From positions 24,288 through 88,287 of IMG/VR virus record IMGVR_UViG_3300010970_000150: 64,000 bases of DNA. One strand, 5' to 3'. Origin of the DNA: a virus. Shown here one piece after another: positions 13,759 through 60,254 of the stretch. The notes below the pieces were generated by a model, which saw only the letters and a program-made list of their open reading frames with translations, ran no database searches and was not told the origin of the DNA. Both the position numbers and the translations under genes were made by a program. Position 1 is the stretch's first letter. Each line of letters begins with the position of its first letter.

Positions 13759-15036
13759 ATGGCTGAACCTATTGACCTTGACGAAATCTTTTCACCTTAT
13801 GCCCTAGGACAATCTAGGGAAAAAATGAAAGGAAGAGACAATTCCTCTGTAATTGATATTGTAAAAGATGCATTTAAAGAAGGCAGAGGGGGCTATTTGC
13901 TTGGAGGAGCAGGTGTGGCTACAGTAGGCGTTGGTGTCAAAAAGGCTTGGGATAAATCTCTTAAATCCAGTTTGGCGATGGTTCAGGATGCGGCTAAGGC
14001 TGAAGCCGAAGCAGTTGCAAAAGCCAAAGATGCTGGATTCAGAGTAAGACCTGTTACCTTGAATAAACCATTGGTTGGCACTATGTCTGGTGCTACTTCT
14101 CAAGGTGTTGGTCTTCCTGTTGCTGAAGCAGAACAACTTGCATTAGCAAAAGATATTACAAGAAGTAAATGGCTTCGTCCGTTTGGCCTTGGTCAATATG
14201 CTGATTCTGCACTGACTCCTAAACTTGAAATCAATCCTAGGGTGCTTAGAATTGCTGGACAGGGTGAACAAACTCTTGGCCTTACCCAAATGACAATGGC
14301 AGATGCTCCAAGGTCGTTTGTTGTTCCAGCCAGCAAGATTCCTGAAATTGTTGAAGGAACTACTAAAGAAAATGTCCCTGCTACATCGCCGTCTGTAGGT
14401 CGCACTATGGCGGCTGATATGCCTGCCCCTAGGTCTGGCCTTCCCTACAACAATTACCAAAGAGGTGCTAGAGCATTGTATAATATGCAGTATGGAAATG
14501 CTGGTATTCCTCTTAACTCTGCTTCAAATATTGGAAAGGCTTTGTTTAAAAGCGGTGCTGGATTACAGGCTATTATGGAAGGTACAACTGCCGCATATGA
14601 TACTTGGCCTGAATTTCTTGGAGGCAGTGGAAATAATGTTTACGGAAGAACTGTTGAAGAACTAAGAAGGGGTGTTAACCCTGAACTAGACCCATTTGCT
14701 TATAATGTAGTTGCTCCTTTTGGTGGAGGTCTTGCCACTACAAAGCGTTGGGGATATGGTGCGGCTAATGCGGCACTTGCTGGAGCACCAATGATGTACA
14801 ACATCATTCAGGAAAACAGAGAAATGGATGCAAAAACTCAAGCAAGCCTTGAAAAAGCATTTGCTGAAAAGCCAGAACAATTTAATCCAGACGAACTTGA
14901 AAGACAAAGACTTAGAAGAATTGAACTGGGCGTTGCTACTTCTAGTGATGAATTTAGATTAAATACACCAGAAGCACATCAAGCATATAAAGCAAAAGTA
15001 AAAGAACTTGAAGAAAAGAAAAAGTCTAAGAAGTGA
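13759..15036 (+). CDS. hypothetical late protein, 425 aa
   Basis: Starts two bases after the HNH gene. Features in order: charged N terminus, a Gly-rich hydrophobic segment (GGYLLGGAGVATVGVGV), Ala/Lys-rich helix, extended region, a second hydrophobic Gly/Ala-rich part (PFGGGLATTKRWGYGAANAALAG), and a Lys/Glu-rich tail (KELEEKKKSKK). The glycine-zipper segments suggest membrane interaction, such as an ejected virion protein, but that is inferred. The stop overlaps the terminase GTG. No counterpart in B. Confidence 0.65.
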   Translation: MAEPIDLDEIFSPYALGQSREKMKGRDNSSVIDIVKDAFKEGRGGYLLGGAGVATVGVGVKKAWDKSLKSSLAMVQDAAKAEAEAVAKAKDAGFRVRPVTLNKPLVGTMSGATSQGVGLPVAEAEQLALAKDITRSKWLRPFGLGQYADSALTPKLEINPRVLRIAGQGEQTLGLTQMTMADAPRSFVVPASKIPEIVEGTTKENVPATSPSVGRTMAADMPAPRSGLPYNNYQRGARALYNMQYGNAGIPLNSASNIGKALFKSGAGLQAIMEGTTAAYDTWPEFLGGSGNNVYGRTVEELRRGVNPELDPFAYNVVAPFGGGLATTKRWGYGAANAALAGAPMMYNIIQENREMDAKTQASLEKAFAEKPEQFNPDELERQRLRRIELGVATSSDEFRLNTPEAHQAYKAKVKELEEKKKSKK

Positions 15037-16640
15037 TTGATTCTGAATTCAAGCCAACGCCTCATCCAGTCATCAAGATGCCAGACATCAAGATGTTGGT
15101 TGAGCGTTTTGGTATTGAAAAAACAGCCCAAATTCTTGAACTAAGAGAAGACAAAATTCTTGCAGAGCAGGTAGACCCTTATCGTCACGGATTTGAGCCT
15201 GACCACTGGAAAGACGCTGACAAAATTATCAAAGATAAACAGGAACTGCTTGTTCTTGGTGGAAATCGTGCTGGCAAGACTGAATGGATGGCTAAAAGAG
15301 TCATTCAAACGCTTATCAACAAGGAAAAGTCAATGGTTTGGTGTCTACATACGACTCAAAAATCCAGCATTCAGATGCAACAGAATGTTGTCTGGAAGTA
15401 TATGCCTCCAGAATTAAAAAATTGCAAAAAGACCAAGGTAACAAACATCGCATACAGCCAAAAAAACGGATTTTCTGAAGAATCTTTCATTCTTCCCAAT
15501 GGTTCTCAGTGCGTGTTTATGAATTATGCTCAGAAACGAGATGTCATTGAAGGTGGCGAGTGTGATTTGGTATGGTGCGATGAACTTGTGCCTATGGATT
15601 GGGTCGAAACCCTCCGCTATCGACTGGTTACACGAAGAGGAAAACTGGTAATCACTTTTACGCCTGTTGCTGGGTACTCACAAGTCGTTAAGGAATTTGT
15701 GTCTGGTTCTAAATTTACAAAAACGCTTCCTGCTACTGTCCTAGACCAGAATGTTGTTCATTGTAATGGTGCTCCAAGAGGGCATATGCCATATACTGCT
15801 GAAAGCCATCGTGGAAATGCTGGGGTTATGTGGTTTCACTCTCAACTTAACCCCTATAACCCATTTGATGAACTGATTAAGACTTTGCAAGGTAAAAACC
15901 TGTATGAGAAGAAAATCAGAGCCTATGGATGGGCAGATAATACTGTAGGCAACCAATTTCCAAGATTTGGAGAGCATAACATCATCAAAGATAGCGATGT
16001 ACCCTCTGAAGGGACTAACTATATGGTAACCGACCCTGCTGGAGCCAGAAACTGGTTTATGCTATGGATGCGGGTCGGAACTGATGGTAATTATTACATT
16101 TACAGGGAGTTCCCAGACATCAGTTATGGCGAATGGGCCTTGCCGTGTGAGAAACCAGATGGCAAGGAAGGTATGGCTCAGCGTAATGGTGCTGGTATGG
16201 GTATTGACGATTACAAGCGTCTTATCCGTTCCCTAGAGGGGTCAGAGGAGATATTGGAAAGGTATATCGACCCTCGTGCAGGTGCAACACAGGCGGTTGG
16301 TCGTGACGGAGGAACATCAGTCATTGAACTACTAGACTCAGGCGATGACCCAATGTATTTTGCACCTGCGGCTGGTGTGGCTATCGAACAAGGGGTTGCT
16401 ATGATTAATGACCTCCTTGCATATGACATCTGTCAACCGATATCTCCGCTCAACCAGCCAAAACTTTTCGTAACAGACAGTTGCAAGAACCTTATATACT
16501 CACTCAAGGAGTGGACTAACGCAGACGGAGATAAAGGGGCTTCAAAAGACCCTGTTGACTGTTTGCGGTATTTAGTTGTTATGTCTCCTATTCATATTGA
16601 CCATTCTAAGAATCCAGTGAATCAACCCTTTTCATACTAA
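15033..16640 (+). CDS. terL: terminase large subunit (TerL)
   Basis: 535 residues, GTG start overlapping the preceding TGA. ATPase domain: Walker A GGNRAGKT at about 76-83, Walker B LVWCDE ending at 184, and a C-motif-like VITFTPVAG. Nuclease domain: VTDPAGARNW with Asp near 334, YIDPRAG near 409, and DCLRYL near 509, giving the RNase H-like metal ligands. It packages concatemeric DNA through the portal and cuts it. The B copy (58647-60254) is also 535 residues. The long gap to the candidate small terminase at 5457 is unusual. Confidence 0.96.
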   Translation: MIDSEFKPTPHPVIKMPDIKMLVERFGIEKTAQILELREDKILAEQVDPYRHGFEPDHWKDADKIIKDKQELLVLGGNRAGKTEWMAKRVIQTLINKEKSMVWCLHTTQKSSIQMQQNVVWKYMPPELKNCKKTKVTNIAYSQKNGFSEESFILPNGSQCVFMNYAQKRDVIEGGECDLVWCDELVPMDWVETLRYRLVTRRGKLVITFTPVAGYSQVVKEFVSGSKFTKTLPATVLDQNVVHCNGAPRGHMPYTAESHRGNAGVMWFHSQLNPYNPFDELIKTLQGKNLYEKKIRAYGWADNTVGNQFPRFGEHNIIKDSDVPSEGTNYMVTDPAGARNWFMLWMRVGTDGNYYIYREFPDISYGEWALPCEKPDGKEGMAQRNGAGMGIDDYKRLIRSLEGSEEILERYIDPRAGATQAVGRDGGTSVIELLDSGDDPMYFAPAAGVAIEQGVAMINDLLAYDICQPISPLNQPKLFVTDSCKNLIYSLKEWTNADGDKGASKDPVDCLRYLVVMSPIHIDHSKNPVNQPFSY

Positions 16641-23840: not shown

Positions 23841-26143
23841 TGCCTAATGAATTCCTAAAGGACGGAGATATCAGTTTTGTCGGGCTTAACAGCCGTGACA
23901 ATCCTGCATCTTTGTCTGCTGGAATTGTTAGCAGGTCTCAGAATTTCAGAATGGATAGGGGTGTTGCAACCGCAAGAAAAGGTCTGCAACGCAAGACTAT
24001 TGGCTCTTTGGTTGGGCAAACCATCTACGGCACAGGCACATACATCCTTTCTTCTGGACAAGAAGTTATTGTTATTGTTGTTGCAGATGGTCTATACAGT
24101 TACAACCCGCAGACAGAAATTCTTTCCTCAAAGGTCTATTTCCCTAGCAGGGTAACAGGGAAGACGCTTTCATCTTCTGATTCGCTTACTGTTACAGTTA
24201 CATCAGCCGCCCACGGACTGCTGGCTGGTGCAAGTGTGTATGTAGAATGCAGTAGCGTAGGGTATACTGGATTGTTTGTTGTTTCATCTGTTGCAACAAA
24301 CACATTCACCTACACAATGCCCTCTGTTGCAAGTGCAGGGGCTGTGTCTGGTGTTGCCTGTAGTTATAGTGCCGCACAGTTAGTTACTACCCCAGACGGC
24401 TGTGATGTCTGTAATGCGTTTGACAAGGTTTTTATCAGTCGTGGCTTTGATAAGCGTCCGTTGATGTGGGACTTAAATGTAACCATAACTGCCCTTCCTG
24501 TTTCTCCTTCTTCTGGTCACCAGTTCCCTAACTGCTCTGGTCTGATGTTCTATGCAAATAGACTTATTGCCCTAGGAAAGCACCACAACGAGCCAACTGC
24601 ACTCAGAAACTACGACACAGTTTCCGTAAGCAACTTCCTAGATTATGAAATGTGGGATGCCCTTGATGCGTTCACCATCAACAATGGCGGCAACGACCAA
24701 ATAGTTAGCATCTCTCCGTGGACTCTTAATGAGTTCTTGGTGTTTATGCGTAACAGCATCTTCTATATTGGCGTTGGAACTAGTAGGTATATATCTGGAG
24801 ATGCTCTTTCGGCAGACTCGTATGTTAGAACCCTTGCTACGGACATCGGCTGTTCGGCACGAAAGTCAGTCGTACAGGCTGGCGGTGGCGTGTTCTTCCT
24901 ATCTGACAGCGGTGTTTACTTCCTCCAGCCTCAACCCGCTTCTGCGGAGTCGATGAAGTTGCTGACTATGGCTGACCCAATCTCAGCCCCGATTGACAAT
25001 GTTATCCAGCGTATCAACAAAAACTATGCCTACCGAGCCGTTGCTACTTATTGGAACAATCGCTATTACCTTGCAGTTCCGCTTGACGATAGTACTGTCA
25101 ATAATACTGTACTTGTATACAATTTTATTCTGAGGCAATGGGAGTCGGTTGATACATATCCTACGCTGGTAACTACAAAAAATCCCCTTACGGCTGATGT
25201 TTGGCAGTTTGGTGGCACTTATCCAAATTATATAAATAACGGGGATATATATATTCAAATTACTAAAAATTCTGCACTTCCTAATCACGGACTTGCTGTT
25301 AATGATTATGTAACTGTAAATTTTGCCAATGATTCTTATTCTGGAGCAACACTTGTTGTCGGGAAGCATCCACCTAACGGAACATACAAAGTATTAAGTG
25401 GACAGCCGTTTTCTGATGTATATTTTACAATTAAGATTCCATTAGACTCATTTGAGTCTCTTCCGTTTACTGGAAGTTACACGACTCCAAGTTATATTTA
25501 CACCTCTGGACTTAATCCTACCTTTTCAAAGGCAGAGTCTGTTTCGCTTAAAGATTTCATTGTTGCTAAGAAAAACAATCAAAGACGGATGTTCTTAATT
25601 GATAATGTGCAAGGCGTATTCTTGACAGAAGAACTAGATTATGATGAGTTCGGAGATTCTATTGGAAACCCAGTTCTTCCAAATCCTATAACTGGCGTTG
25701 ACACTTTAGCAAACATTGCACTTGGGTTATACGGAAACCTTATTTTGGTTTCATCCCTTACGGAAAGCGGTGCTCCTAACCCTAATGTAATTATTCTTGA
25801 GGCTTTGGCGTTTAGCAAAAATGCTATTAACGCAGTTCTTGAAACAAGGCAGTATTCATTTAATGGAATAAACGACAAGCGTTTCAGTTCCTACGAGGCA
25901 AACCTTCTAACCTCTGGCGGTGAATACATTGAAACATATGTAAATGTTCTTAACCCAGATATTTCCGTAAAGGTAGACGCACTAGGCTCTTCTTCACTTG
26001 AAGACCACAACAGAAGTAATCCTATTAGGAAAACAGGTTCTCACGCATCCATTAAGTTCATCTCTTACTCTAAGAGACCCTCTATTCGCTCTGCCTTTAT
26101 TTACGCCAAGCAACAAAACAAAAACAATTTAAACAAACAATAA
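23840..26143 (+). CDS. tail stabilisation protein (tail tubular B / P22 gp10-like)
   Basis: 767 residues, beta-rich throughout, with propeller-like blades, for example LMFYANRLIALG and PWTLNEFLVFMRNSIFYIG, and RAVATYWNNRYYLAV. Residues about 115-175 carry an inserted module (VTVTSAAHGLLAGASVYVE, YTGLFVVSSVATNTFTYTM), also found in the next protein. Length and place fit the hexameric tail-nozzle/stabilisation proteins of podoviruses, which join the adaptor to fibre proteins. It is probably a structural protein of the short tail. Confidence 0.8.
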   Translation: MPNEFLKDGDISFVGLNSRDNPASLSAGIVSRSQNFRMDRGVATARKGLQRKTIGSLVGQTIYGTGTYILSSGQEVIVIVVADGLYSYNPQTEILSSKVYFPSRVTGKTLSSSDSLTVTVTSAAHGLLAGASVYVECSSVGYTGLFVVSSVATNTFTYTMPSVASAGAVSGVACSYSAAQLVTTPDGCDVCNAFDKVFISRGFDKRPLMWDLNVTITALPVSPSSGHQFPNCSGLMFYANRLIALGKHHNEPTALRNYDTVSVSNFLDYEMWDALDAFTINNGGNDQIVSISPWTLNEFLVFMRNSIFYIGVGTSRYISGDALSADSYVRTLATDIGCSARKSVVQAGGGVFFLSDSGVYFLQPQPASAESMKLLTMADPISAPIDNVIQRINKNYAYRAVATYWNNRYYLAVPLDDSTVNNTVLVYNFILRQWESVDTYPTLVTTKNPLTADVWQFGGTYPNYINNGDIYIQITKNSALPNHGLAVNDYVTVNFANDSYSGATLVVGKHPPNGTYKVLSGQPFSDVYFTIKIPLDSFESLPFTGSYTTPSYIYTSGLNPTFSKAESVSLKDFIVAKKNNQRRMFLIDNVQGVFLTEELDYDEFGDSIGNPVLPNPITGVDTLANIALGLYGNLILVSSLTESGAPNPNVIILEALAFSKNAINAVLETRQYSFNGINDKRFSSYEANLLTSGGEYIETYVNVLNPDISVKVDALGSSSLEDHNRSNPIRKTGSHASIKFISYSKRPSIRSAFIYAKQQNKNNLNKQ

Positions 26144-44713: not shown

Positions 44714-45460
44714 TTAGAAGGGGATGGCATCCTCGCTCACAGGGGCGGCAGAGGGGTTCTGGGACTCGTTCCAGAGACGGACAGCCTCAGCCTTAGTGTT
44801 GGCATCCTTGGCAGAGACAGTCGTGTTGTCACCAAAGGGCTTGGGAGTCCAGCGAGTAGCGAAGTAACTGAGGTCACCAAACTTCACCTCACGATTGGCT
44901 TCAGTCAGGGGCAGGTCGCTAAGAGGAGTACCCTTGCGGTCACCGAAGGGAGCGACAGCCACGAAGCCAGCAGGGGCAGGCTTAGAAGGGCTAGCGGTCA
45001 CGGACGGAGCAACACGAGCCACAGGCTTTGCAACATAGGCACTCGGCTTAGAGCCAGACTTAGCCAGACGATTAGTCTCTGCATCGCAGTCTTCAGTAGC
45101 CACGCCTGCCACAGAAGCCAAAGCGTACCTGCGAAGATAAGAATAGATAGACCCAGCGTCCTGACCAGACATTTCCTTGTCAGCAGGAATAAGAGCATCC
45201 GCTTCAACAGAGCCACCAGAGGCGTGGATGAGGATGGTGCGAACTCCAACAGCACCCTCGCTTCCGATAGGGAACTGGAGGACTGCAAGTCCGTGCTTCT
45301 TAAAGATAGGCTTGAGGGTTTCAAGATGCTTAGAGAGGCTGGCATAGGAATTCTTATGGAAGGGATTAGTCGAGTCGGCAATGATGTCCTGCGTCTCAGA
45401 GAGAGCATTGACCAGAGCGATGTTGAGTTCAGTTTGCTGTTCAGGCGTATTGCGGTTCAT
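44714..45460 (-). CDS. erf: ERF-family single-strand annealing protein
   Basis: About 248 residues. Matches A's protein over the ERF core: ELNIALVNALSETQDI, SYASLSKHLETLKPIFKKHGL, SIYSYLRRYALASVAGVATED. Linker is Pro/Ala-rich, and the end retains a DAIPF acidic tail. It binds ssDNA and anneals complementary strands after resection. A longer frame (start 45514) begins 12 bp after the RHH gene; 45460 was chosen from alignment with A's N terminus. Confidence 0.86.
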   Translation of the reverse strand: MNRNTPEQQTELNIALVNALSETQDIIADSTNPFHKNSYASLSKHLETLKPIFKKHGLAVLQFPIGSEGAVGVRTILIHASGGSVEADALIPADKEMSGQDAGSIYSYLRRYALASVAGVATEDCDAETNRLAKSGSKPSAYVAKPVARVAPSVTASPSKPAPAGFVAVAPFGDRKGTPLSDLPLTEANREVKFGDLSYFATRWTPKPFGDNTTVSAKDANTKAEAVRLWNESQNPSAAPVSEDAIPF

Positions 45461-45526
45461 AGAGGTAGGATTAAAAAGGGAGTCGGAAAAAGTAGTATAG
45501 GAGTGGTCGGACATAGGAGTAAGGTA

Positions 45527-45700
45527 TTACGAGAGGGGATGGGTGTCAACTTCTTTCTGCAAAATAGTTCTAACAAAAGTAGAGCGAGTCATCGCAATGT
45601 TTTTTGCAATCTTTGTGATTGACTTGAGCAGTTTGTTAGGCAGGCGAACTGTGAGCATTTCTTCTGAGGTTCTAGAGAGTCGTTTGATTTTAGTTTTCAT
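45527..45700 (-). CDS. ribbon-helix-helix (Arc/CopG-type) regulator
   Basis: 57 residues from MKTKIKR. A basic N terminus, then strand MLTVRLPNKLL and helices SITKIAKNIAMTRSTFVRTIL, the ribbon-helix-helix plan. Such dimers bind DNA through paired strands. It lies between ERF and the lysozyme-like gene, with ATGA overlap to the latter, and could autoregulate this operon or bind the operator-like repeats elsewhere in B. Confidence 0.8.
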   Translation of the reverse strand: MKTKIKRLSRTSEEMLTVRLPNKLLKSITKIAKNIAMTRSTFVRTILQKEVDTHPLS

Positions 45701-46197
45701 CGGGAAAGAATAACATTGGCTCGCTTGAGAATACACACACGAGCGTCAGAAAGGGTAGGGGAGTTCGGGTCAAAGTTCGCTTTAGACGCACCGCCAAAGC
45801 CCATATTGTAAGCCATATAGAGTTGGATGTCGGTAGGCTTAATGCCACGCTTTTGGAAGCGGTAGTTTAAAAGCAGGAAGTAATTCTTTGCAACGATGCG
45901 GGAGATGACAGGGTCTTTGGCTCGTGCCTTCCATTGGTTAGTGATGTGACCAACCAGCCAAGAGAAACTTTCTTGGAATTGACCATTGTCATTATGCTCC
46001 ATCCACTTGCAGGCATCGACCCAAGCGTCCTCGTGTAGTTGGTAAGCCCCCAGAGCCTTTCCCTTGTCCCCTACGGCATTAGGATTAAAGTTTGACTCAA
46101 TCATTGCGACAGAGTCCAAGAACTTTTCGGTGATGCGTTCCGCAGGCTTAGCGGAGGCAAAGGAACAGAGAGCCAGCAGACTGAGTAGGTGCTTCAT
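45697..46197 (-). CDS. exported lysozyme-like / lytic transglycosylase protein
   Basis: 166 residues from MKHLL. Signal peptide MKHLLSLLALCSFASA, then FLDSVAMIESNFNPNAVGDKG with catalytic Glu near 34 and GKALGAYQLH. C-terminal part adds helices (YMAYNMGFGGASK). It is homologous to A's 1418-1834 but 28 residues longer. Likely cleaves peptidoglycan in the periplasm. An upstream Met gives a longer frame that would spoil the signal peptide. Confidence 0.75.
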   Translation of the reverse strand: MKHLLSLLALCSFASAKPAERITEKFLDSVAMIESNFNPNAVGDKGKALGAYQLHEDAWVDACKWMEHNDNGQFQESFSWLVGHITNQWKARAKDPVISRIVAKNYFLLLNYRFQKRGIKPTDIQLYMAYNMGFGGASKANFDPNSPTLSDARVCILKRANVILSR

Positions 46198-46251
46198 AGA
46201 GTTGGATGAAATGGGAATGGTAATACGATGCAAGCGGAAAAGAGAAATAGT

Positions 46252-46932
46252 TCAAACTTTCTTTTCAGCCATTCCAGCCATCTGGTAGTAGTCCTTGAGC
46301 CTGCGGATTAGAGCCTTCCCAGTCTCGATGTCACGGCTGTCGAATCGCTCCAGCAAAGTCGTGCCGTTATAATTCGTGGAGATAATTGTAGGACGCTTGG
46401 CGGTAGAACGCTCGTCAATGATGGCGAACAGGTCGGAAGCCATACGCTGGGTCAGACGCTCCTTGCCAAAGTCATCAATGATAAGGAACGGCAGTTCAAT
46501 CAGCCCCTCCAGCATCCGTGCGTGTTGGCGGTCATCAAAGCCCTTCTCAATCATACCCTCAATCTTACGCATAGTAAGGAACTGGTAAGCCAACTGGCGG
46601 TCACGCTTAGCCTGCTCTACCCATTGCCTGCGGATAATTTCCCAGATGGCTCGTGTCTTTCCGATACCAGTCGTGCCGTGGAGCAGGAGACCACTCTTGT
46701 CACCCTCTGGCTTCCACTCTACAGCCTTTTGAATGCTTGGGTGAAGCCTTGATACCTCCGTGTCCCTGAAGAGGGCAGGCATCGCAGGGGGGACAGTAGA
46801 GTCCACCAGCCCCTCAGCCGTCACACGCTCTTGGTCGAGGTGTTCACGGCAACGATGGTAACGGACAAGGGAGTGGTCATCCTTAGCGAACAAAGCACCA
46901 CGCTTACCACAATGACAGGCGATGTCGCTCAT
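46252..46932 (-). CDS. DnaC-like AAA+ helicase loader
   Basis: 226 residues from MSDIACHCGKRG. Cysteine knuckle at the N terminus, Walker A HGTTGIGKTRAIW, Walker B LPFLIIDDFGKERL, sensor IISTNYNG. Same layout as A's 2901-3587. The protein would load host DnaB on phage origin DNA. It is separated from the replication gene only by a 65-residue coiled-coil gene. Confidence 0.9.
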   Translation of the reverse strand: MSDIACHCGKRGALFAKDDHSLVRYHRCREHLDQERVTAEGLVDSTVPPAMPALFRDTEVSRLHPSIQKAVEWKPEGDKSGLLLHGTTGIGKTRAIWEIIRRQWVEQAKRDRQLAYQFLTMRKIEGMIEKGFDDRQHARMLEGLIELPFLIIDDFGKERLTQRMASDLFAIIDERSTAKRPTIISTNYNGTTLLERFDSRDIETGKALIRRLKDYYQMAGMAEKKV

Positions 46933-47126
46933 TTGTTTTCGCCCTCCTTGGCGGCTTGCCACGCTTGCAGAACCTTCTGCCTTCCTTCAGACGAAGGAGC
47001 ATTGCAGGCGATGCAGAACACATCATCCCCTGCCTTGCGGAGGCGTTTGTTTTCGTCAAGAGCCTCGTGCCAGAGGTCTTGATAGTGACGAGCCTTTTCG
47101 ATTAGGTCTTCAATGCGGTTTGTCAT
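46929..47126 (-). CDS. coiled-coil protein of the LRKAGD/AKEGK type, 65 aa
   Basis: Short coiled coil (EDLIEKARHYQDLWHEALDE, then NKRLRKAGDDV) ending QAWQAAKEGENK. Third member of the family at 41297 and 41665, inserted between replication protein and loader genes in B. No counterpart at this position in A. Cys-rich insertion CIACNAPSSEG may bind metal. Confidence 0.65.
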   Translation of the reverse strand: MTNRIEDLIEKARHYQDLWHEALDENKRLRKAGDDVFCIACNAPSSEGRQKVLQAWQAAKEGENK

Positions 47127-47132
47127 AGGTGA

Positions 47133-47828
47133 TTAGAATGCGTTGTGGTCTTCAGATGTCAATGCCTTTGATGTCTTAGCACCAAACTTTTTGTTGGGTT
47201 CAAATAATCCCTGCCAGCCTTGCTTGATGGACTGCTCAATCGCCTCGGTGGACTTCTGTTCACCCCAGAGAGCGAACTCCTTGAACTGAGCCTGTACGCT
47301 AGAGTCCGTGAGTTTCTTCTTCATCTCCTTACGATAAGTCACCCAAGACTTCCAAGAAGCAATGAAAGCATCAGAACCAAAGGGCAAACAAACAATCCAA
47401 CCTAGTTCTTTGCCTGTATCTTTATCTCCTTTATTATCTTCTTTGTTATATGTATGTAGTTTCTTACATCCCCCCCCTGTAGTTTTCTGCATACCCCCCT
47501 GCAATTTCTTACACCCCTCGGAGCGAGTCACTTGCCCATCAGCCAAAGCCTTTGTCACAGCAACACGCTCAATGGTGCGGATGATTCTACGACCATTAGG
47601 GTCTTCTGAGCGTTTGATGAGTCCAGCGACCTCAAGGTCAGCGAGAATCAACTGCACCGAACGCACCTCAAGCCCAAGGTGCTTGGACAGGTAGGCGTTA
47701 GAGGCAAAGCATCCTCCCTCATTGTCGAGGCTCTCCAGTACACCATACACCACCTTAGCGGTGATGCTGATGGTGGTGGTCTGGAAGATGGCGGCAGGAA
47801 TCCACACGCCTGTGAACTTAGGGTCGCT
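47133..47828 (-). CDS. winged-helix replication protein (initiator/organiser)
   Basis: 231 residues from MSDPKFTGVWIPAAIF, matching A's MSKPSFTGVWIPVEVF. Winged helix (TAKVVYGVLESLDNEGGCFA, LSKHLGLEVRSVQLILADL), linker rich in Gly/Lys, and C-terminal helical domain (WKSWVTYRKEMKKKLTDSS, SIKQGWQGLFEPN). Likely binds the origin and recruits the loader. Its coding region has a run of CCCCCC/GGGG motifs in the linker part, which could be an origin feature, unproved. Confidence 0.82.
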   Translation of the reverse strand, partial: SDPKFTGVWIPAAIFQTTTISITAKVVYGVLESLDNEGGCFASNAYLSKHLGLEVRSVQLILADLEVAGLIKRSEDPNGRRIIRTIERVAVTKALADGQVTRSEGCKKLQGGMQKTTGGGCKKLHTYNKEDNKGDKDTGKELGWIVCLPFGSDAFIASWKSWVTYRKEMKKKLTDSSVQAQFKEFALWGEQKSTEAIEQSIKQGWQGLFEPNKKFGAKTSKALTSEDHNAF

Positions 47829-48058
47829 CATTTGGTGAAGTCCTTGTTGCCAGTCCACTTGAAGGTCTGGATATTTGGCATAGCATATTGAAGACTACTA
47901 GGAGAGATTACGCACCCGTAATTCTTCTTGATAGCCTCGACTTCAATCATCTTATCAAAGCCGATAGGCGAGAAAGAACGAATCAGGAACTCATCTGGGA
48001 TTCGGAACTCGTGATTGCCAGCAGTTAAGCCGTGATTGATGTATTTAGTCTTGTTCAC
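47828..48058 (-). CDS. hypothetical protein, 76 aa
   Basis: Small alpha/beta protein (HEFRIPDEFLIRSFSPIGFD, VEAIKKNYGCVISPSSLQYAM) with overlaps on both sides. Function unknown. No counterpart between exonuclease and replication genes in A. Confidence 0.6.
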   Translation of the reverse strand: MNKTKYINHGLTAGNHEFRIPDEFLIRSFSPIGFDKMIEVEAIKKNYGCVISPSSLQYAMPNIQTFKWTGNKDFTK

Positions 48059-48867
48059 AGGTTCACCTCAACAGAGGAGTCGGAGTAAGCAGGGTACTTG
48101 CCAGAGGACTGACAGACAGCGAAGTCGTGGATAGAGTTCTCCCAAAGTTGAAAGGTCTTATCTCGGCTGTGCTTGCTGATGGTGTACACGCCCACGGCAA
48201 AAGGAGGGACTTTTTCTACTAGGATAAAATAGAAATTGTTGCAGACCTTTCCGTTCGCATCAAGCAACCAGCGGTACTGGACTTCCTGAATGTCGTAGCG
48301 TCTATCCCAGATTGCCTTCCTAGCACCAGCAGGCGAGGCATCCTCAGCACTCTTGTAGTCCAGAGCAAAGCCCTCGGTAGCAGAGTAGCCGTCAATCATT
48401 CCCTTCAGGCGAACCTCACCGCCAGCAGGACGGCTCGTACCGAACACAGCGACCTCCTTATGCGTCAGAGCCTTGTGCAGGCTAGAGGCAAGAGGGTGAG
48501 CCATCACGCTTGCCTTCATCGCTTGAATGGTTGCGTACTCGTCTGCGTCAATGATAGCCTTACCTGCGTTCTCAATGGCGAACTCTTCATTGTACGCACG
48601 ACCTTCCTTGGTGCGACCATCCATCTTCAGTTTCACAGAGAAGAACTTAGTCGGGTCATCCTGAAGCATCAGGGCGTGGAAAGCCGTGCCAAGAATCATA
48701 GCCTTGGTCGGTTCTTTCTTAACCTCCGTGCTGGCGAGGTAGTGAGCAGGACTGACGAGGAACTCCTTGAGAGAACTTTGAGCCAGACCAGTTGCGTTGC
48801 GGTAGTCAGCGTCAGCAATCCCAGCGAGGAACGCTGGGTCTGAGCCGTTGTGGGATGTAGTAATCAT
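48055..48867 (-). CDS. PD-(D/E)XK exonuclease, RecE C-terminal-like
   Basis: 270 residues. Motifs: ILGTAFHALML, MDGRTKEGRAYN, and core RLKGMIDGYSATEGFALDYKSAED, with Asp, Asp and Lys. It is the counterpart of A's 4203-4997 and would act with ERF. It overlaps the downstream gene by four bases, so it is in the same operon. Confidence 0.85.
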   Translation of the reverse strand: MITTSHNGSDPAFLAGIADADYRNATGLAQSSLKEFLVSPAHYLASTEVKKEPTKAMILGTAFHALMLQDDPTKFFSVKLKMDGRTKEGRAYNEEFAIENAGKAIIDADEYATIQAMKASVMAHPLASSLHKALTHKEVAVFGTSRPAGGEVRLKGMIDGYSATEGFALDYKSAEDASPAGARKAIWDRRYDIQEVQYRWLLDANGKVCNNFYFILVEKVPPFAVGVYTISKHSRDKTFQLWENSIHDFAVCQSSGKYPAYSDSSVEVNL

Positions 48868-48898: not shown

Positions 48899-49264
48899 TC
48901 AACCCTTCTTTCGTCTTTCTTTTGCTTTTTTATTCCGTCTCAATCTCTTCTCATCTGGAGTCCTGTGGGTCGGGTGCGTCTCTTCTCTTGGTGCTTCAGC
49001 AAAGCAATCCCAGTAAGCGAGGACGCTGGCTACGAACTCAGCCTTGGTACGCTGACGCTTGGCTCTACGGGCGAGGTTACTTATCTTTCCTTCAATGCCA
49101 TTGCAATTCTGGCATAGCACCCCACGGATAAGTCCTGTCTCGTGGTCGTGGTCAAGGCAGGCGGTCACGCACCTGAGGTCTATCTTGCACAGCCAGCAGT
49201 TTCCGTTCTGGGACACGGCAATCTTATCACGCAGGTCAGGAATATCTTTTACTTTTAGTTTCAT
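48899..49264 (-). CDS. endonuclease VII-like Holliday junction resolvase
   Basis: 121 residues. The zinc-binding and catalytic region reads CWLCKID, then CLDHDHETGLIRGVLCQNCN, the recombination endonuclease VII (T4 gp49) pattern: Cys pairs plus DHDH. The C terminus is Lys/Arg-rich. It resolves branched DNA before packaging. Genome A has RusA at this same position, so unrelated enzymes fill the slot. The leftward promoter may be TTGACT at about 49310 with a TAAAAG box. Confidence 0.9.
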   Translation of the reverse strand: MKLKVKDIPDLRDKIAVSQNGNCWLCKIDLRCVTACLDHDHETGLIRGVLCQNCNGIEGKISNLARRAKRQRTKAEFVASVLAYWDCFAEAPREETHPTHRTPDEKRLRRNKKAKERRKKG

Positions 49265-50536: not shown

Positions 50537-50845
50537 ATGAAACTCGAAAAATACTTCGTTGTGTCTTCTTATGTCTCTTACGAGGCAAAGACCAGCGTCA
50601 CCACCAGCCCTGTCTTTGACACGGCTATTGAAACCCTGATTTGGCTCAACAAGACCAAGGCAGAAGTTTCTCCATACTCCAGCGAGAAGTCGTACTCGTT
50701 CTATGAAATCTGCAACTGGGTGAATATCGACTCGACTAAGTTGTTCTCTAAGTCTGAGTTCGATATGCAGATGCTCGCTCGTAAGGAGTCTGAAGCCCTC
50801 CTTCCTGTCCTTGTGCCGCCTGTTGAAGTCACTCCCATCGTCTAA
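50537..50845 (+). CDS. hypothetical early protein, 102 aa
   Basis: ATG follows CCCACACGCAT, the shared early leader. Strand-helix protein (KYFVVSSYVSYEAKTSVTTS, IETLIWLNKTKAE, FYEICNWVNIDSTKLF). Short segment at C terminus is Val/Pro-rich. Function unknown. Confidence 0.65.
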   Translation: MKLEKYFVVSSYVSYEAKTSVTTSPVFDTAIETLIWLNKTKAEVSPYSSEKSYSFYEICNWVNIDSTKLFSKSEFDMQMLARKESEALLPVLVPPVEVTPIV

Positions 50846-51252: not shown

Positions 51253-51539
51253 GTGCCAGAATAAAGTTGACAGATTACATATAACTGGATTCTATAGCCG
51301 AACAATAGGGAAGGTTAATGCGTCAAGGATGGCGTGTTAGCCTGCCTGTAGGACTTAATGCGTCACTTATGGCGTGTCTAGGATTGGTTCTAAGCCCTCC
51401 TGATTCCAGCCCTAGTCCTTGGTCAGGCTGGGAATCCAAGAGCCTCCTAGGGCATCCTCAGGTCATCTAGACGGCACTCAGCCTAGGCATCTAGGCACAA
51501 AGAAGGGCAGACCCCGTAGAGCCTGCCCTGATTGTACTT
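51253..51539. other. gap with repeated 23-bp units and a hairpin
   Basis: No gene seen. A TTGACA (about 51270) with a possible TTCTAT box is near the start. Two direct repeats, TTAATGCGTCA-3 bases-ATGGCGTGT, start at 51315 and 51355, 40 bp apart (four helical turns). Near the end GGGCAG and CTGCCC form a hairpin before TTGTACTTTT, a probable terminator for convergent transcripts. Confidence 0.5.
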
Positions 51540-51734
51540 TTACTTATTGCCAAGAATGTATCCTGCCAGAGCGATGTCCATCCTGACCTTGCCGCCATTA
51601 TGCTCATTAATCGCCTGAAGGAGTTTCTTTTCGAGGTGGCGTTCAAGTGCCTCAAGGAAATCCTTGCTCACCTGCTTGCCGTGACTCTTGCAGAACTTCT
51701 TAACATTAGCCGTCTTGATGTAGTATTGCTTCAT
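51540..51734 (-). CDS. small histone-fold candidate, 64 aa
   Basis: 64 residues, short and basic. The central helix-strap-helix pattern (NVKKFCKSHGKQVSKDFLEA, then LERHLEKKLLQAINEHNGG) followed by a short strand (KVRMDI) resembles small bacterial histone-like proteins with one histone fold, which dimerise and bind DNA. This is by pattern only. If correct, it could compact or protect phage DNA, or alter host chromatin. It is expressed alone from the minus strand with the CCCACCACGCAT leader and a long hairpin upstream. Confidence 0.6.
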   Translation of the reverse strand: MKQYYIKTANVKKFCKSHGKQVSKDFLEALERHLEKKLLQAINEHNGGKVRMDIALAGYILGNK

Positions 51735-51755
51735 ATGCGTGGTGGGAAATTGAAT

Positions 51756-51825
51756 AGCCTGTCAGCCCCACGAAGGTCACAAATAAACCCTTGAGCATCG
51801 TTGCCTACGCTCAGACTGACAGGCT
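51756..51825 (-). promoter_or_regulatory. nested hairpin leader of the histone-fold gene
   Basis: AGCCTGTCAG (51756-51765) and CTGACAGGCT (51816-51825) are a perfect 10-bp inverted repeat; within it TGAGC and GCTCA form an inner stem. Just upstream on the minus strand is a TACATT box. The structure sits in the likely 5' untranslated leader and could regulate translation or stability. Confidence 0.6.
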
Positions 51826-51864
51826 AAAATGTAAAGGAACGGAAAGGGCATTCTACTTTATATA

Positions 51865-52420: not shown

Positions 52421-52855
52421 TTACTTGGCTTCAGCCAACTTCTTAACCATCTCCTCCAAGACCACCTTGATGAGTTCCTTGAGTTCCTCGTTAGAGGGGC
52501 GATTGCACTCAATCACCTCATTCTCAAGGGAGTCCTTGACCAACTCTTCAACCTTGTCGCTGAGTTCGTCAGCGTGTTCATTGATGAGTTCGTTGACCTT
52601 ATCTTCATTGCAGAAGTCGGAGTTCGACATCCACATATCAATTTGGTCATCGAGGTCATTGCTCCTGACAAAGTCATCAGGGTCGATGTCGTTACACTTC
52701 TCTTCCACATCATCCAGACGGCTTTCGACATCCGACAAGTCGGTTGCCTCCAGTTCGTCCACCTGAGTGGAGAGTTTGTCATAGTCCTTGCGGACAGTAG
52801 TGACAGTTAAGGCGAGGGCGTTGATGCCCAGCCAGTTCTTAATCCAGTTCTTCAC
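52421..52855 (-). CDS. acidic coiled-coil protein, 144 aa
   Basis: GTG start at 52855. Begins KNWIKNWLGINALALTV, an amphipathic/hydrophobic segment, then coiled coil (RKDYDKLSTQVDELEATDLS, VNELINEHADELSDKVEELV). Same plan as A's 266-residue protein at 7923, which is longer; orientation differs. Function unknown. Confidence 0.7.
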   Translation of the reverse strand: MKNWIKNWLGINALALTVTTVRKDYDKLSTQVDELEATDLSDVESRLDDVEEKCNDIDPDDFVRSNDLDDQIDMWMSNSDFCNEDKVNELINEHADELSDKVEELVKDSLENEVIECNRPSNEELKELIKVVLEEMVKKLAEAK

Positions 52856-53039: not shown

Positions 53040-53238
53040 CCCCCTAAAACACCCCCTAAAAGGCTCTAGGATGCCCTACAAGCCCCTTGCAAGGTAGCCT
53101 TGGTGTCTACCCTCGCCAGCCTCGATACCCCCCTTAGAAGGCAAATGTGAAGGGCATTGATAATACCCAATGTTTACAGGGGTTTCCTGCGTGTCACGAG
53201 GCGTGTCAAGGAATACTTCACTTCAAGCACTAAATAGT
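53040..53238 (+). repeat. long intergenic repeat, copy 1
   Basis: Imperfect copy of a roughly 200-bp element: CCCCCTAAAA start, AGGATGCCCT, then CAATGTTTACAGGGGTTT at 53168 and CGTGTCAAGGAATACTTCA followed by TCAAGCACTAAATAG. Copies 2 and 3 share the core. Confidence 0.65.
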
Positions 53239-53989: not shown

Positions 53990-54244
53990 ATGAATAAAAC
54001 CATCGCCGCCCAAATCAGAACTCACGAAACGCAAGGTCAGAAGTACCTGCGTCTCGCAAGCGACAACTTCGCTGTCGCTAACTCAGAGAAGGGGCTGACT
54101 CGTGAGTCCCTTGAACGCCACAAGGAGTACCTAGGCTACGCTGAAGACTACAGCCTGCTCGCCCATAAGGAACTTGGTTGCGCCTACAGCCTCCTCTCTA
54201 ACGAGATGCACAAGGCTGACCTGCCTGTGAATAAGTCAGAGTAA
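53990..54244 (+). CDS. hypothetical early protein, 84 aa
   Basis: ATG preceded by CCCACCACGCAT. Helical protein (QKYLRLASDNFAVANSEKGL, RHKEYLGYAEDYSLLAHKEL). Function unknown. Own promoter, monocistronic. Confidence 0.65.
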   Translation: MNKTIAAQIRTHETQGQKYLRLASDNFAVANSEKGLTRESLERHKEYLGYAEDYSLLAHKELGCAYSLLSNEMHKADLPVNKSE

Positions 54245-54520: not shown

Positions 54521-54550
54521 TGTAACAATTGACACACGATTGTAACAATT
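54521..54550 (+). promoter_or_regulatory. paired TGTAACAATT operator-like site, copy 2
   Basis: TGTAACAATT at 54521-54530 and 54541-54550, with GACACACGAT between; same 20-bp period as copy 1. It lies directly upstream of the ArdC-like gene promoter. Confidence 0.65.
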
Positions 54551-54556
54551 ATCCTC

Positions 54557-54584
54557 TCGACATATCTGTAAATAGCCTTACATT
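54557..54584 (+). promoter_or_regulatory. sigma70-like promoter of the ArdC-like gene
   Basis: TCGACA (54557-54562), 16-bp spacer, TACATT (54579-54584), then CCCACCACGCAT and ATG at 54607. The CTCGACA block echoes A's promoter element. Confidence 0.62.
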
Positions 54585-54606
54585 CCTATCTGTACCCACC
54601 ACGCAT

Positions 54607-55452
54607 ATGACCACTACCACTAAAGTCTCGGTTGCCGACATCCTCGCTGAACGCTTCATCCTCTCCCTTGAGGCTGGCACTATTCCTTGGCAGAAGCCTT
54701 GGAAGTTCGTTCGCCCCCAGAACGCTATCAGCCGCAAGGCTTACTCTGGGGTCAACGCCTTCATCATTGGCTGGTACGGGCAGGACAACTACTACCTGAC
54801 CTTCAACCAGATTAAGGCTCTGGGCGGCTCGCTGGAGAAGGGCACTCGCTCCCTCCCTGTGCAGTTCTTCTCCAAGGTCGAGGCTTCCAAGTCCAAGGAC
54901 GGCAAGGAGTTCCTCTTCCGCCGCTACTATAATGTCTTCCCCCTGAACAAGGTCACCCTGCCTGAGGGCAAGGAATACAAGCGAGCCGACAAGCAGATTG
55001 ACTTCCAGCCTGACGCTGAGGCTGAGCGTCTCGCCTCCCTCTCCACCTGCCCCGTGCGTCAGGGCAAGGAAGGTCGAGCCTGCTACAGTCCCACCTTCCA
55101 TCGCATTGAGATGCCTGCCAAGGACTCCTTCAAGTCGGTTGCTCACTATTACGCAACCCTCTTCCACGAGATTGGTCACTCCCTCAAGGAAAAGGGTACG
55201 CACTCCACGGGCTTTGGCTCTGAGCCTTACGCTAAGGAGGAACTGGTCGCTGAACTGTTCTCCAGCCTCTGCCTCGGTCATTGCGGACTGGACGCTAGCG
55301 AGACCTTCACCAACGCCTCTGCCTATGTCGAGAACTGGCTGACCGCCCTGAAGGGTGACAAGACCCTCATCCTCTCTGCCGCCTCTGAAGCCTTCAAGCG
55401 CTTCACGGCTCTGACCAAGGTCGCTGAGGTCGCTGAGGAGGTCGAGGCGTAA
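54607..55452 (+). CDS. ardC: ArdC-like antirestriction protein
   Basis: 281 residues. N-terminal ArdC/DUF1738 domain with VADILAERFILSLEAGTIPW, later PWKFVRPQNAISRKAYSGVN and YYLTFNQIKALGGS, known to bind ssDNA. The C-terminal zincin-type domain has HEIGH at about 187-191 and a possible third ligand in KEELVAELF near 213. Known ArdC proteins protect incoming DNA against restriction. Early expression from its own promoter, coupled with an operator pair upstream, fits defence against host restriction on entry. Present in B only. Confidence 0.88.
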   Translation: MTTTTKVSVADILAERFILSLEAGTIPWQKPWKFVRPQNAISRKAYSGVNAFIIGWYGQDNYYLTFNQIKALGGSLEKGTRSLPVQFFSKVEASKSKDGKEFLFRRYYNVFPLNKVTLPEGKEYKRADKQIDFQPDAEAERLASLSTCPVRQGKEGRACYSPTFHRIEMPAKDSFKSVAHYYATLFHEIGHSLKEKGTHSTGFGSEPYAKEELVAELFSSLCLGHCGLDASETFTNASAYVENWLTALKGDKTLILSAASEAFKRFTALTKVAEVAEEVEA

Positions 55453-55499: not shown

Positions 55500-55704
55500 G
55501 CCTATCCAGCCCCCTAGACACCCCCTAGAAGGCTCACAAATGCCCTCAGAGGGTGGCTTCTACCCGCCTTGGTACTTACCCTCACCCCATATGACAAGAG
55601 CCTTGTAGGGCAAATACAGAGGACACGCATTCCGACCAATGTTTACAGGGGTTTGCTCCACCTCGTGAGCCGTGTCAAGGGATACTTCAAATCAAGCACT
55701 AAAT
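55500..55704 (+). repeat. long intergenic repeat, copy 2
   Basis: Imperfect copy of the element at 53040-53238. Includes CAATGTTTACAGGGGTTT at 55637 and a matching tail GTGTCAAGGGATACTTCAAA, then TCAAGCACTAAATAG. CCCCCTAGA near the start echoes copy 1. Confidence 0.65.
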
Positions 55705-55758
55705 AGCACGAGGCATCAGAAAGTTATTCACACCCCTCAGGGTGAACAGCCGTACAGG

Positions 55759-58584: not shown

Positions 58585-58725
58585 ATGGGAGACCCAAACG
58601 ACATCGAAGAAGATGATGACGATGATATCCCATTCCAAGAACTGATATGGCTTTCACTCCTACCCCTCACCCTATTCTTGTCACTCCGACTCAGGAGGAG
58701 ATTAGGAGTTTGGCTGAAAAGGTAG
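58585..58725 (+). CDS. small acidic protein, 46 aa
   Basis: Starts GDPNDIEEDDDDDIPFQELIWL, then a hydrophobic, basic end that overlaps the terminase start in another frame. The first 22 residues match A's 12645 protein in plan. The C-terminal part may be chance read-through of terminase DNA. Confidence 0.45.
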   Translation: MGDPNDIEEDDDDDIPFQELIWLSLLPLTLFLSLRLRRRLGVWLKR

Positions 58726-60254
58726 GGGCTGAAAGGACTGCTGAAATCCTGACCCTGCGAGAGGATAAGATACTTGCAGAGAAGTTAGACCCTTACCGCC
58801 ACGGCTTTGACCTCCCGCATTGGAAGGAAGCCGACCAGTTGCTCAAGGAGAACAACGAGGTGCTTATCCTAGGCGGCAACAGAGCGTCCAAAACTGAGTG
58901 GGCGGCTAAGCGGGTTGTCCAAACGCTTATCAATATCAAGGATGCCAGAGTATGGTGTTTGCATACTACGAATCAGTCGAGTATCCAGATGCAACAGAAT
59001 GTCATCTATAAGTACCTGCCGTCTGAGTTCAAGGAACTCCGAAAGAACAAGGTGCAGAATGTTCAGTACACTCAGAAGAACGGCTTCTCCGATAACACCT
59101 TCATTCTGCCTAACAAGAGCCAATGCTTCTTTATGAACTACGCCCAGAAGCGAGATGTCATTGAAGGTGGCGAGGTTGATTTTATCTGGTGCGATGAACT
59201 TGTGCCGCTGGACTGGGTTGAGACGCTACGCTATCGTGCAGTCACTCGTATGGGTAAGATGGTTGTCACATTCACACCTATCTCTGGCTACAGTTCTGTG
59301 GTTAAGGAGTATGTAAGCGGTGCGAAGATTACGGAGACACTTGCCTCCCCCTTGCTACCAGACTCCCAGAATGTGATGGGATGCCCTAGGGGTCATATGC
59401 CGTACAAGGCTAAATCTTTTAATCGCTCTTCAGCGGTGATGTGGTTTCATAGCCAACTCAATCCGTACAATCCTTTTGAGAACCTCAAGAAGACCCTTGC
59501 TGGCAAGAAGTCCTACGAGATTAAGATTCGTGCGTATGGCTGGGCTGACAATATCAGCGGTAGTCAGTTCCCACGATTCAACCCAGAGGTAAATGTCGTT
59601 AAGGCTGAAAACATCCCCAAGGAAGGCACGAACTATTTTATCACCGACCCTGCTGGAGCAAGAAACTGGTTTATGCTCTGGGCTAGGGTTGACAAGGAAG
59701 GGAATATATATGTCTATAGAGAGTTCCCAGACACTTCAGACGGAGAGTGGGCGTTACCCTCTGGAGACCCTGACGGAAAGGCAGGGACAGCCCAAAGAAA
59801 CGGAGCAGGGAGGTCTCTGGCTGACTACAAGCAGATGATTCTTGACCTAGAGCAGGGCGAGTCCATCTGGGAGCGATATATCGACCCTCGTGCTGGCGGC
59901 TCTAAGGCTGTGACTGACGAAGGCGGCACAACGCTCATCGAGATGCTTGATGGTGGCGAGAACCCTATGAACTTCCAGCCAGCCGCTGGTATCCGTATCG
60001 AACAGGGCGTAGCAATGATTAATGATGGATTTGCTTACGACTACAACCAAGAGATAAGCCCCTTGAACAAACCAAAACTTTATATCAGCGATGCCTGTGA
60101 AAACCTAATCTATTGCCTAAAGGAATGGACAGGACAGGACGGAGACAAGGGTGCAACCAAAGACCCTATCGACTGCTTACGATACCTTATGACAATGAAT
60201 CCACAATTTCAGGGAAATGACTCTATGAAGGGTTACGGAGGCGGTGGATACTAA
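58647..60254 (+). CDS. terL: terminase large subunit (TerL)
   Basis: 535 residues, as in A. Walker A GGNRASKT (note Ser where A has Gly), Walker B DFIWCDE, C-motif VVTFTPISG, nuclease TDPAGARNW, YIDPRAGG, DCLRYL. It packages DNA into heads. The strong similarity to A's protein but clear divergence shows these are different phages of one family. The next gene starts on the TAATG junction. Confidence 0.96.
   Translation: MAFTPTPHPILVTPTQEEIRSLAEKVGAERTAEILTLREDKILAEKLDPYRHGFDLPHWKEADQLLKENNEVLILGGNRASKTEWAAKRVVQTLINIKDARVWCLHTTNQSSIQMQQNVIYKYLPSEFKELRKNKVQNVQYTQKNGFSDNTFILPNKSQCFFMNYAQKRDVIEGGEVDFIWCDELVPLDWVETLRYRAVTRMGKMVVTFTPISGYSSVVKEYVSGAKITETLASPLLPDSQNVMGCPRGHMPYKAKSFNRSSAVMWFHSQLNPYNPFENLKKTLAGKKSYEIKIRAYGWADNISGSQFPRFNPEVNVVKAENIPKEGTNYFITDPAGARNWFMLWARVDKEGNIYVYREFPDTSDGEWALPSGDPDGKAGTAQRNGAGRSLADYKQMILDLEQGESIWERYIDPRAGGSKAVTDEGGTTLIEMLDGGENPMNFQPAAGIRIEQGVAMINDGFAYDYNQEISPLNKPKLYISDACENLIYCLKEWTGQDGDKGATKDPIDCLRYLMTMNPQFQGNDSMKGYGGGGY

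Follow-up and report, generated by a model that had tools for sequence, protein, structure and literature searches.

The 64,000-nucleotide stretch analysed here (the window; positions 24,288 to 88,287 of the IMG/VR virus record IMGVR_UViG_3300010970_000150) carries on its minus strand, at positions 51540-51734, a gene which very probably encodes a short, one-domain histone of a bacteria-infecting virus; histones are the proteins by which human cells fold their DNA. We are confident that the translation product, MKQYYIKTANVKKFCKSHGKQVSKDFLEALERHLEKKLLQAINEHNGGKVRMDIALAGYILGNK, adopts the histone fold. It is likely that the protein is a phage-borne, single-domain member of the alpha3 histone superfamily, forming a handshake dimer and having an early, DNA-bending architectural role on the replicating phage genome.

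Since searches with single sequences matched nothing, a family profile was built (those of Pfam, PHROGs and the PDB, along with a PADLOC scan, gave chance matches only, namely Ribosomal_60s, MukB and Cas11f). The profile hidden Markov model (HMM), made from 30 and then from 39 members, was compared with the whole PDB (177,635 sequences). With 30 members, the first four ranks are occupied by HTkC (E-value 1.9e-4), HLp (0.034) and two constructs of HBb (0.11 and 0.12), four different sequences of alpha3 histones with known structures. With 39 members the ranking does not change (1.2e-4 for HTkC, 0.042 for HLp, 0.057 and 0.062 for the HBb constructs). In hhalign, the family profile aligns with HTkC, HLp and HBb at a probability of 94.3 and a score of 38.7, while none of 100 column shuffles exceeds 19.2 (mean 9.4), and reversing the alignment gives 9.6. 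The hhalign target consists of stretches from three chosen histones, so that the score reports likeness to those three, and the unbiased test is the search of the whole PDB; the stretches were located with a hand-written consensus that blends the window protein with general histone sequence, which is itself not evidence.

The AlphaFold2 model of the window protein has a mean predicted local distance difference test (pLDDT) value of 92.4. It shows a short-long-short arrangement of three helices (residues 8-17, 24-43 and 54-61, i.e. 10, 20 and 8 residues) connected by two strap loops. When the model was compared with the PDB in Foldseek, ranks 1-7 were all chains of HLp, HBb or HTkC, with a template modelling (TM) score of up to 0.77 and root-mean-square deviations of 0.8-2.2; HLp is the best match. 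The lower ranks are mostly histone folds as well (TAFs, the Marseillevirus nucleosome, Asgard HHoB, NF-Y and MHF). The histone fold proposed in a preliminary description of this DNA is borne out by the profile search of the PDB, the profile-profile comparison with its shuffle control and the predicted structure. Alpha3 histones came first in both the structure and the profile comparison. Neither a simple helical hairpin nor some other small family emerged, either of which would have spoken against the fold.

The minus-strand open reading frame (ORF) is a genuine gene under purifying selection, because 39 distinct homologues could be aligned (an earlier set had 30 members) and the changes are mostly found at third codon positions. 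Between the window gene and its relative in contig L002 there are 23 third-position changes and 9 at first or second positions, and the ratio of non-synonymous to synonymous rates (dN/dS) is ~0.09. The preliminary description names no strand; the plus-strand frame across the same positions was set aside as an overlapping open frame. Homologues were found in 50 IMG/VR contigs (a first scan gave 37 and another added 13), all of 58-72 residues and ending at or just past alpha3; the isoelectric point (pI) is 9.1-10.2 for every member of the first family set, and contig L001 encodes a protein 100% identical to that of the window. A scan of 395 Bacteroidota genomes gave one real match, located inside an apparent prophage. 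A second, weaker one (L051) sits in an 870-residue frame. No member was found in 297 Acidobacteriota genomes, and tblastn of the INPHARED phages and PLSDB plasmids gave no match. Two matches from a genome-contig scan with the window protein were spurious (L007, a RecO-like frame, and L008, a junk frame).

Among the viral models in Foldseek, the best two matches (E ~1e-6) are A0A6J5QYV5 (64 residues) and A0A6J5MS37 (91 residues) from uncultured Caudovirales phages, with 59% and 55% identity, respectively. Both are family members present in UniProt, unnamed and without a histone annotation, A0A6J5MS37 being annotated as longer. The third and fourth ranks belong to the longer proteins A0A516LIY4 (139 residues) and A0A516M1G1 (99 residues); our guess is that these could belong to the published phage-histone class discussed below.

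In HBb, DNA is contacted by T8, S9, K10, K12, K16, N22, S24, K52, T53 and R57 (PMC11317129). These positions were mapped onto the family through the HMM alignment and counted over 30 members; judged by this alignment, most of them are conserved. A serine at position 9 is found in 18/30 members, lysine or arginine at 12 in all 30, K16 in 22 and S23 in 23, and the loop-2 contacts K50 and T51 in 25 and 27, respectively. R21 (27/30) takes the place of HBb N22, and helix 1 also has K13 in 22 of the 30. The family signature is the block H-N-G-G-K-K-T-L-D, in which N46 is invariant. In the window copy, loop 2 reads K49-V50-R51, and residue 21 is glutamine instead of the family arginine, so the DNA contact at these positions may differ. 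The alpha2 helix, with 20 residues in the model, is shorter than in nucleosomal histones, which is a trait of alpha3 histones. The third helix has 8 residues, not the 3-4 to which alpha3 is truncated by definition in alpha3 histones (PMC11390915). The modelled alpha3 length is thus intermediate between those of alpha3 and nucleosomal (10 residues) histones.

Several results weigh against a DNA-binding alpha3-type histone. The Foldseek E-values against the PDB are weak (0.31 at best), though this is expected for 64 residues. For the gene family, Pfam, NCBIfam and PHROGs gave no family above threshold, and single-sequence phmmer with either the window protein or that of L099 found no histone. 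In the window copy, V50-R51 replaces the K-T of loop 2, and the RD clamp (RxTxxxxD) is absent from the family: the strap KKTLD has no aspartate five residues past the threonine, position 56 being L, V or I. Further, PF00808 (CBFD_NFYB_HMF) did not score above its gathering threshold anywhere in the 88 kb record or in the first 30 members.

The coordinates of the gene and its surroundings are collected below.

Features of the window around the histone-fold gene
Feature	Position	Strand	Remarks
Replication/recombination module	44714-48867	minus	same strand as histone gene
ERF annealing protein	44714-45514	minus	in window
Helicase-loader-like ATPase	46252-46962	minus	
HTH_36 protein	47133-47858	minus	
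PD-(D/E)XK exonuclease-like protein	48055-48867	minus	
Recombination endonuclease VII-like protein	48899-49264	minus	conserved neighbour
Intrinsic-terminator-like hairpin	51504-51529	minus	immediately past histone stop codon
Histone-fold gene	51540-51734	minus	ATG at 51734, stop at 51540, 64 codons
Predicted single-domain alpha3-type histone-fold protein	51540-51734	minus	64 residues, pI 9.8, charge ~+7
CCACGCATATG start-site motif	51732-51742	minus	common to other early genes of the phage
Leader hairpin	51755-51826	minus	three-way-junction-like: long closing stem, two inner arms
Acidic helical/coiled-coil protein	52421-52855	minus	144 residues, pI 4.2, charge ~-23

The histone gene is probably its own transcription unit, because it has a leader, a start motif shared with other genes and a terminator-like hairpin after the stop codon. 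The separate control claimed in the preliminary description fits this hairpin (reading 51529-51504) and a terminator-like GGGG...CCCCTTTTT repeat upstream of the gene. Its shared early start signal was also recovered: the motif CCACGCATATG ends at the start codon of the histone gene and, in exact form, at those of the ORFs starting at 53990, 54301, 54607 and 56136, and with one mismatch at the ORF start at 50537. Allowing up to one mismatch, there are nine matches against 0.67 expected, a number reached in 0 of 100 shuffles. Between 50529 and 56138 of the window, the motif is present at several early genes without an obvious Shine-Dalgarno sequence. In the relatives, CTTTCTGTTCTTTCACATCC-CGCATATG is found where the window carries this motif.

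The structured leader, also claimed earlier, is strong in the window (a 14-bp stem, -35.7 kcal/mol, z = -2.75 in respect to dinucleotide shuffles), but most relatives lack it, so that it does not belong to the gene in general. Besides the window, only L001 and L026 have it; it is absent from L002, L003, L010 and others, and most relatives have a short leader with no hairpin. L001 shows one compensatory pair, G-C to C-G (AGCC/GGCT to ACCC/GGGT). The leader RNA has a conserved core, GUCUGAGCGUAGGCAACGAUGCUCAAGG, and a variable third arm, and its presence differs among close phages. No Rfam family matched the hairpin; it was considered as a regulator or known RNA and, being absent in most relatives, is taken as a local insertion.

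Downstream of the histone gene, the same-strand genes for the endonuclease VII-like, PD-(D/E)XK exonuclease-like and HTH_36 proteins and for the helicase-loader-like ATPase are present in ~14 related contigs. In the window the ERF annealing protein gene is also downstream, and short early genes of the other strand intervene. The acidic coiled-coil protein is usually encoded directly upstream of the histone and is conserved in ~14 contigs; it is a possible histone partner. Its AlphaFold2 model is of low confidence (predicted TM score 0.24) and too poor to be classified as a known fold. The histone neighbourhood is different in another group of contigs (L019, L021, L033 and L038). In L033, a gene with the look of a DNA cytosine methyltransferase in its N-terminal sequence lies 764 bases downstream of the histone start, which suggests that the DNA of that phage group may be modified. 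The Bacteroidota prophage member adjoins AAA_24-like and ArdC genes, followed by ordinary chromosomal genes. An ArdC-type anti-restriction protein with a metallopeptidase domain is encoded at 54529-55452 of the window as well. A 106-base direct repeat (53132-53237 and 55601-55706, 75% identity), with CCAATGTTTACAGGGGTTT repeats, is located between early genes.

The 88,287-base record has identical ends of 55 bases, and an exact internal repeat, 2,311 bases long (record 3031, window 23167), splits the circle into ~44.4 and 43.8 kb. The record holds two terminases (15033-16640 and 58647-60254, ~65% nucleotide identity) and two tRNA-Thr genes. Its likeliest reading is a figure-eight assembly chimera that joins two related phages of ~44 kb, just one of which has the histone gene. 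The finding of the histone is unaffected, since L001 encodes the identical protein.

On the basis of family membership, two copies of the protein would most likely join in the histone handshake, giving a dimer that is small and basic. This dimer would hold DNA via the N-terminus of helix 1, GKR-S in loop 1 and the HNGGKKT strap of loop 2, and would bend or locally compact it with no sequence preference. The protein would be produced early, from a transcription unit of its own, beside the recombination and replication genes. Because of this neighbourhood, it would most likely serve the replicating phage genome as a nucleoid-type architectural protein, as HU/IHF or HBb do for cells. A wider reading, in which a widespread family of single-domain phage histones, intermediate between the alpha3 and nucleosomal types, serves an architectural role in replication and recombination, perhaps with the acidic coiled coil as a chaperone-like partner, is rather doubtful.

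An unlikely alternative is that the histone-fold protein acts on the host, either by pairing with a host histone or nucleoid protein or by coating host DNA, and so redirects or shuts off host transcription instead of organising phage DNA. Small early phage genes often serve host takeover, and this gene is small, separately transcribed and equipped with the early-gene start motif; the ArdC-type gene is among those around it, and the loss of the loop-2 K-T in the window copy may reduce its DNA contact. However, the DNA-contact residues are kept in nearly all relatives, and the conserved neighbours are genes of DNA recombination and replication. It is quite improbable that the protein is packaged into the virion and condenses the capsid genome as the Marseillevirus histones do: coating a whole ~44 kb tailed-phage genome demands very high expression, internal condensing proteins are unusual in tailed phages, and the gene lies beside early replication and recombination genes, away from the head genes. 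A small basic protein predicted to bind DNA could nevertheless be packaged, and nucleosome-like packaging is established in a giant virus (cited in PMC11390915). The least probable explanation is a three-helix domain with no relation to histones, which binds DNA or protein and matches the helix lengths by chance; for this, the missing curated family and the weak individual Foldseek E-values would speak, but the profile, profile-profile and structure comparisons all single out one trio of alpha3 histones (in the first and the last case from the whole PDB), and column shuffles fail to reproduce the profile-profile score.

The family matters in that bacterial histones have been accepted only recently, and those of phages only as a single class defined by AlphaFold. 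With a further, minimal family in phages, these viruses would seem to be a reservoir of bacterial histones and may also carry them. The family is seen in ~50 contigs and one prophage, with no cultured phage or plasmid record among those searched, and at 64 residues the protein is easy to produce and assay.

The name 'phage histones' dates from 2024, when it was given to an alpha3 class that carries a tetramerisation helix at the C-terminus and lacks the RxTxxxD motif (Schwab et al. 2024, PMC11390915); the name occurs in two papers of the literature searched. The earlier statement that they are rarely reported must therefore be narrowed: they are not unreported, but the published class has the tetramerisation helix which is absent here. 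In the literature searched, with subscription journals and preprints mostly outside it, single-domain phage histones are not described, and the family is in no family database searched. The histones of Schwab et al. (e.g. A0A2E7QIQ9) and the present family share encoding by tailed phages or prophages, the alpha3-type fold, the lack of the RxTxxxD motif, and a lysine conserved both on helix 1 and in the strap. The C-terminal helical tetramerisation domain of the former is found in none of the 50 members, the two groups being compared by description only.

HBb (Bd0055), the dimeric bacterial histone of Bdellovibrio bacteriovorus (8FVX, 8CMP, 9EZZ, 9F0E), is similar in size and has a single histone fold. 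It shares with the family the short helix 2, the conserved helix-1 lysines, the loop-1 serine and the loop-2 KT, and can be aligned with it over residues 6-52 (Foldseek TM up to 0.77). HBb has an RD clamp and an alpha3 of one turn (PMC11317129), whereas the family has no clamp and an 8-residue alpha3. Unlike HBb, the family is phage-borne and carries the H-N-G-G-K-K-T-L-D signature.

HTkC (9F2C) and HLp (9QT0), alpha3 histones of the face-to-face (FtF) type, are the closest by profile and by Foldseek, respectively, and differ from the family in having the RD clamp. The invariant N46, preceding the basic residues of the strap, resembles the asparagine of the FtF tetramer (N45 before R47 and T49 in D4GZE0). 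At the place of the second tetramer residue, R41 in D4GZE0, the family has no conserved arginine and the window protein has I42 (alignment by eye). We file the family as a histone-fold protein of the alpha3 type outside the five published alpha3 subclasses.
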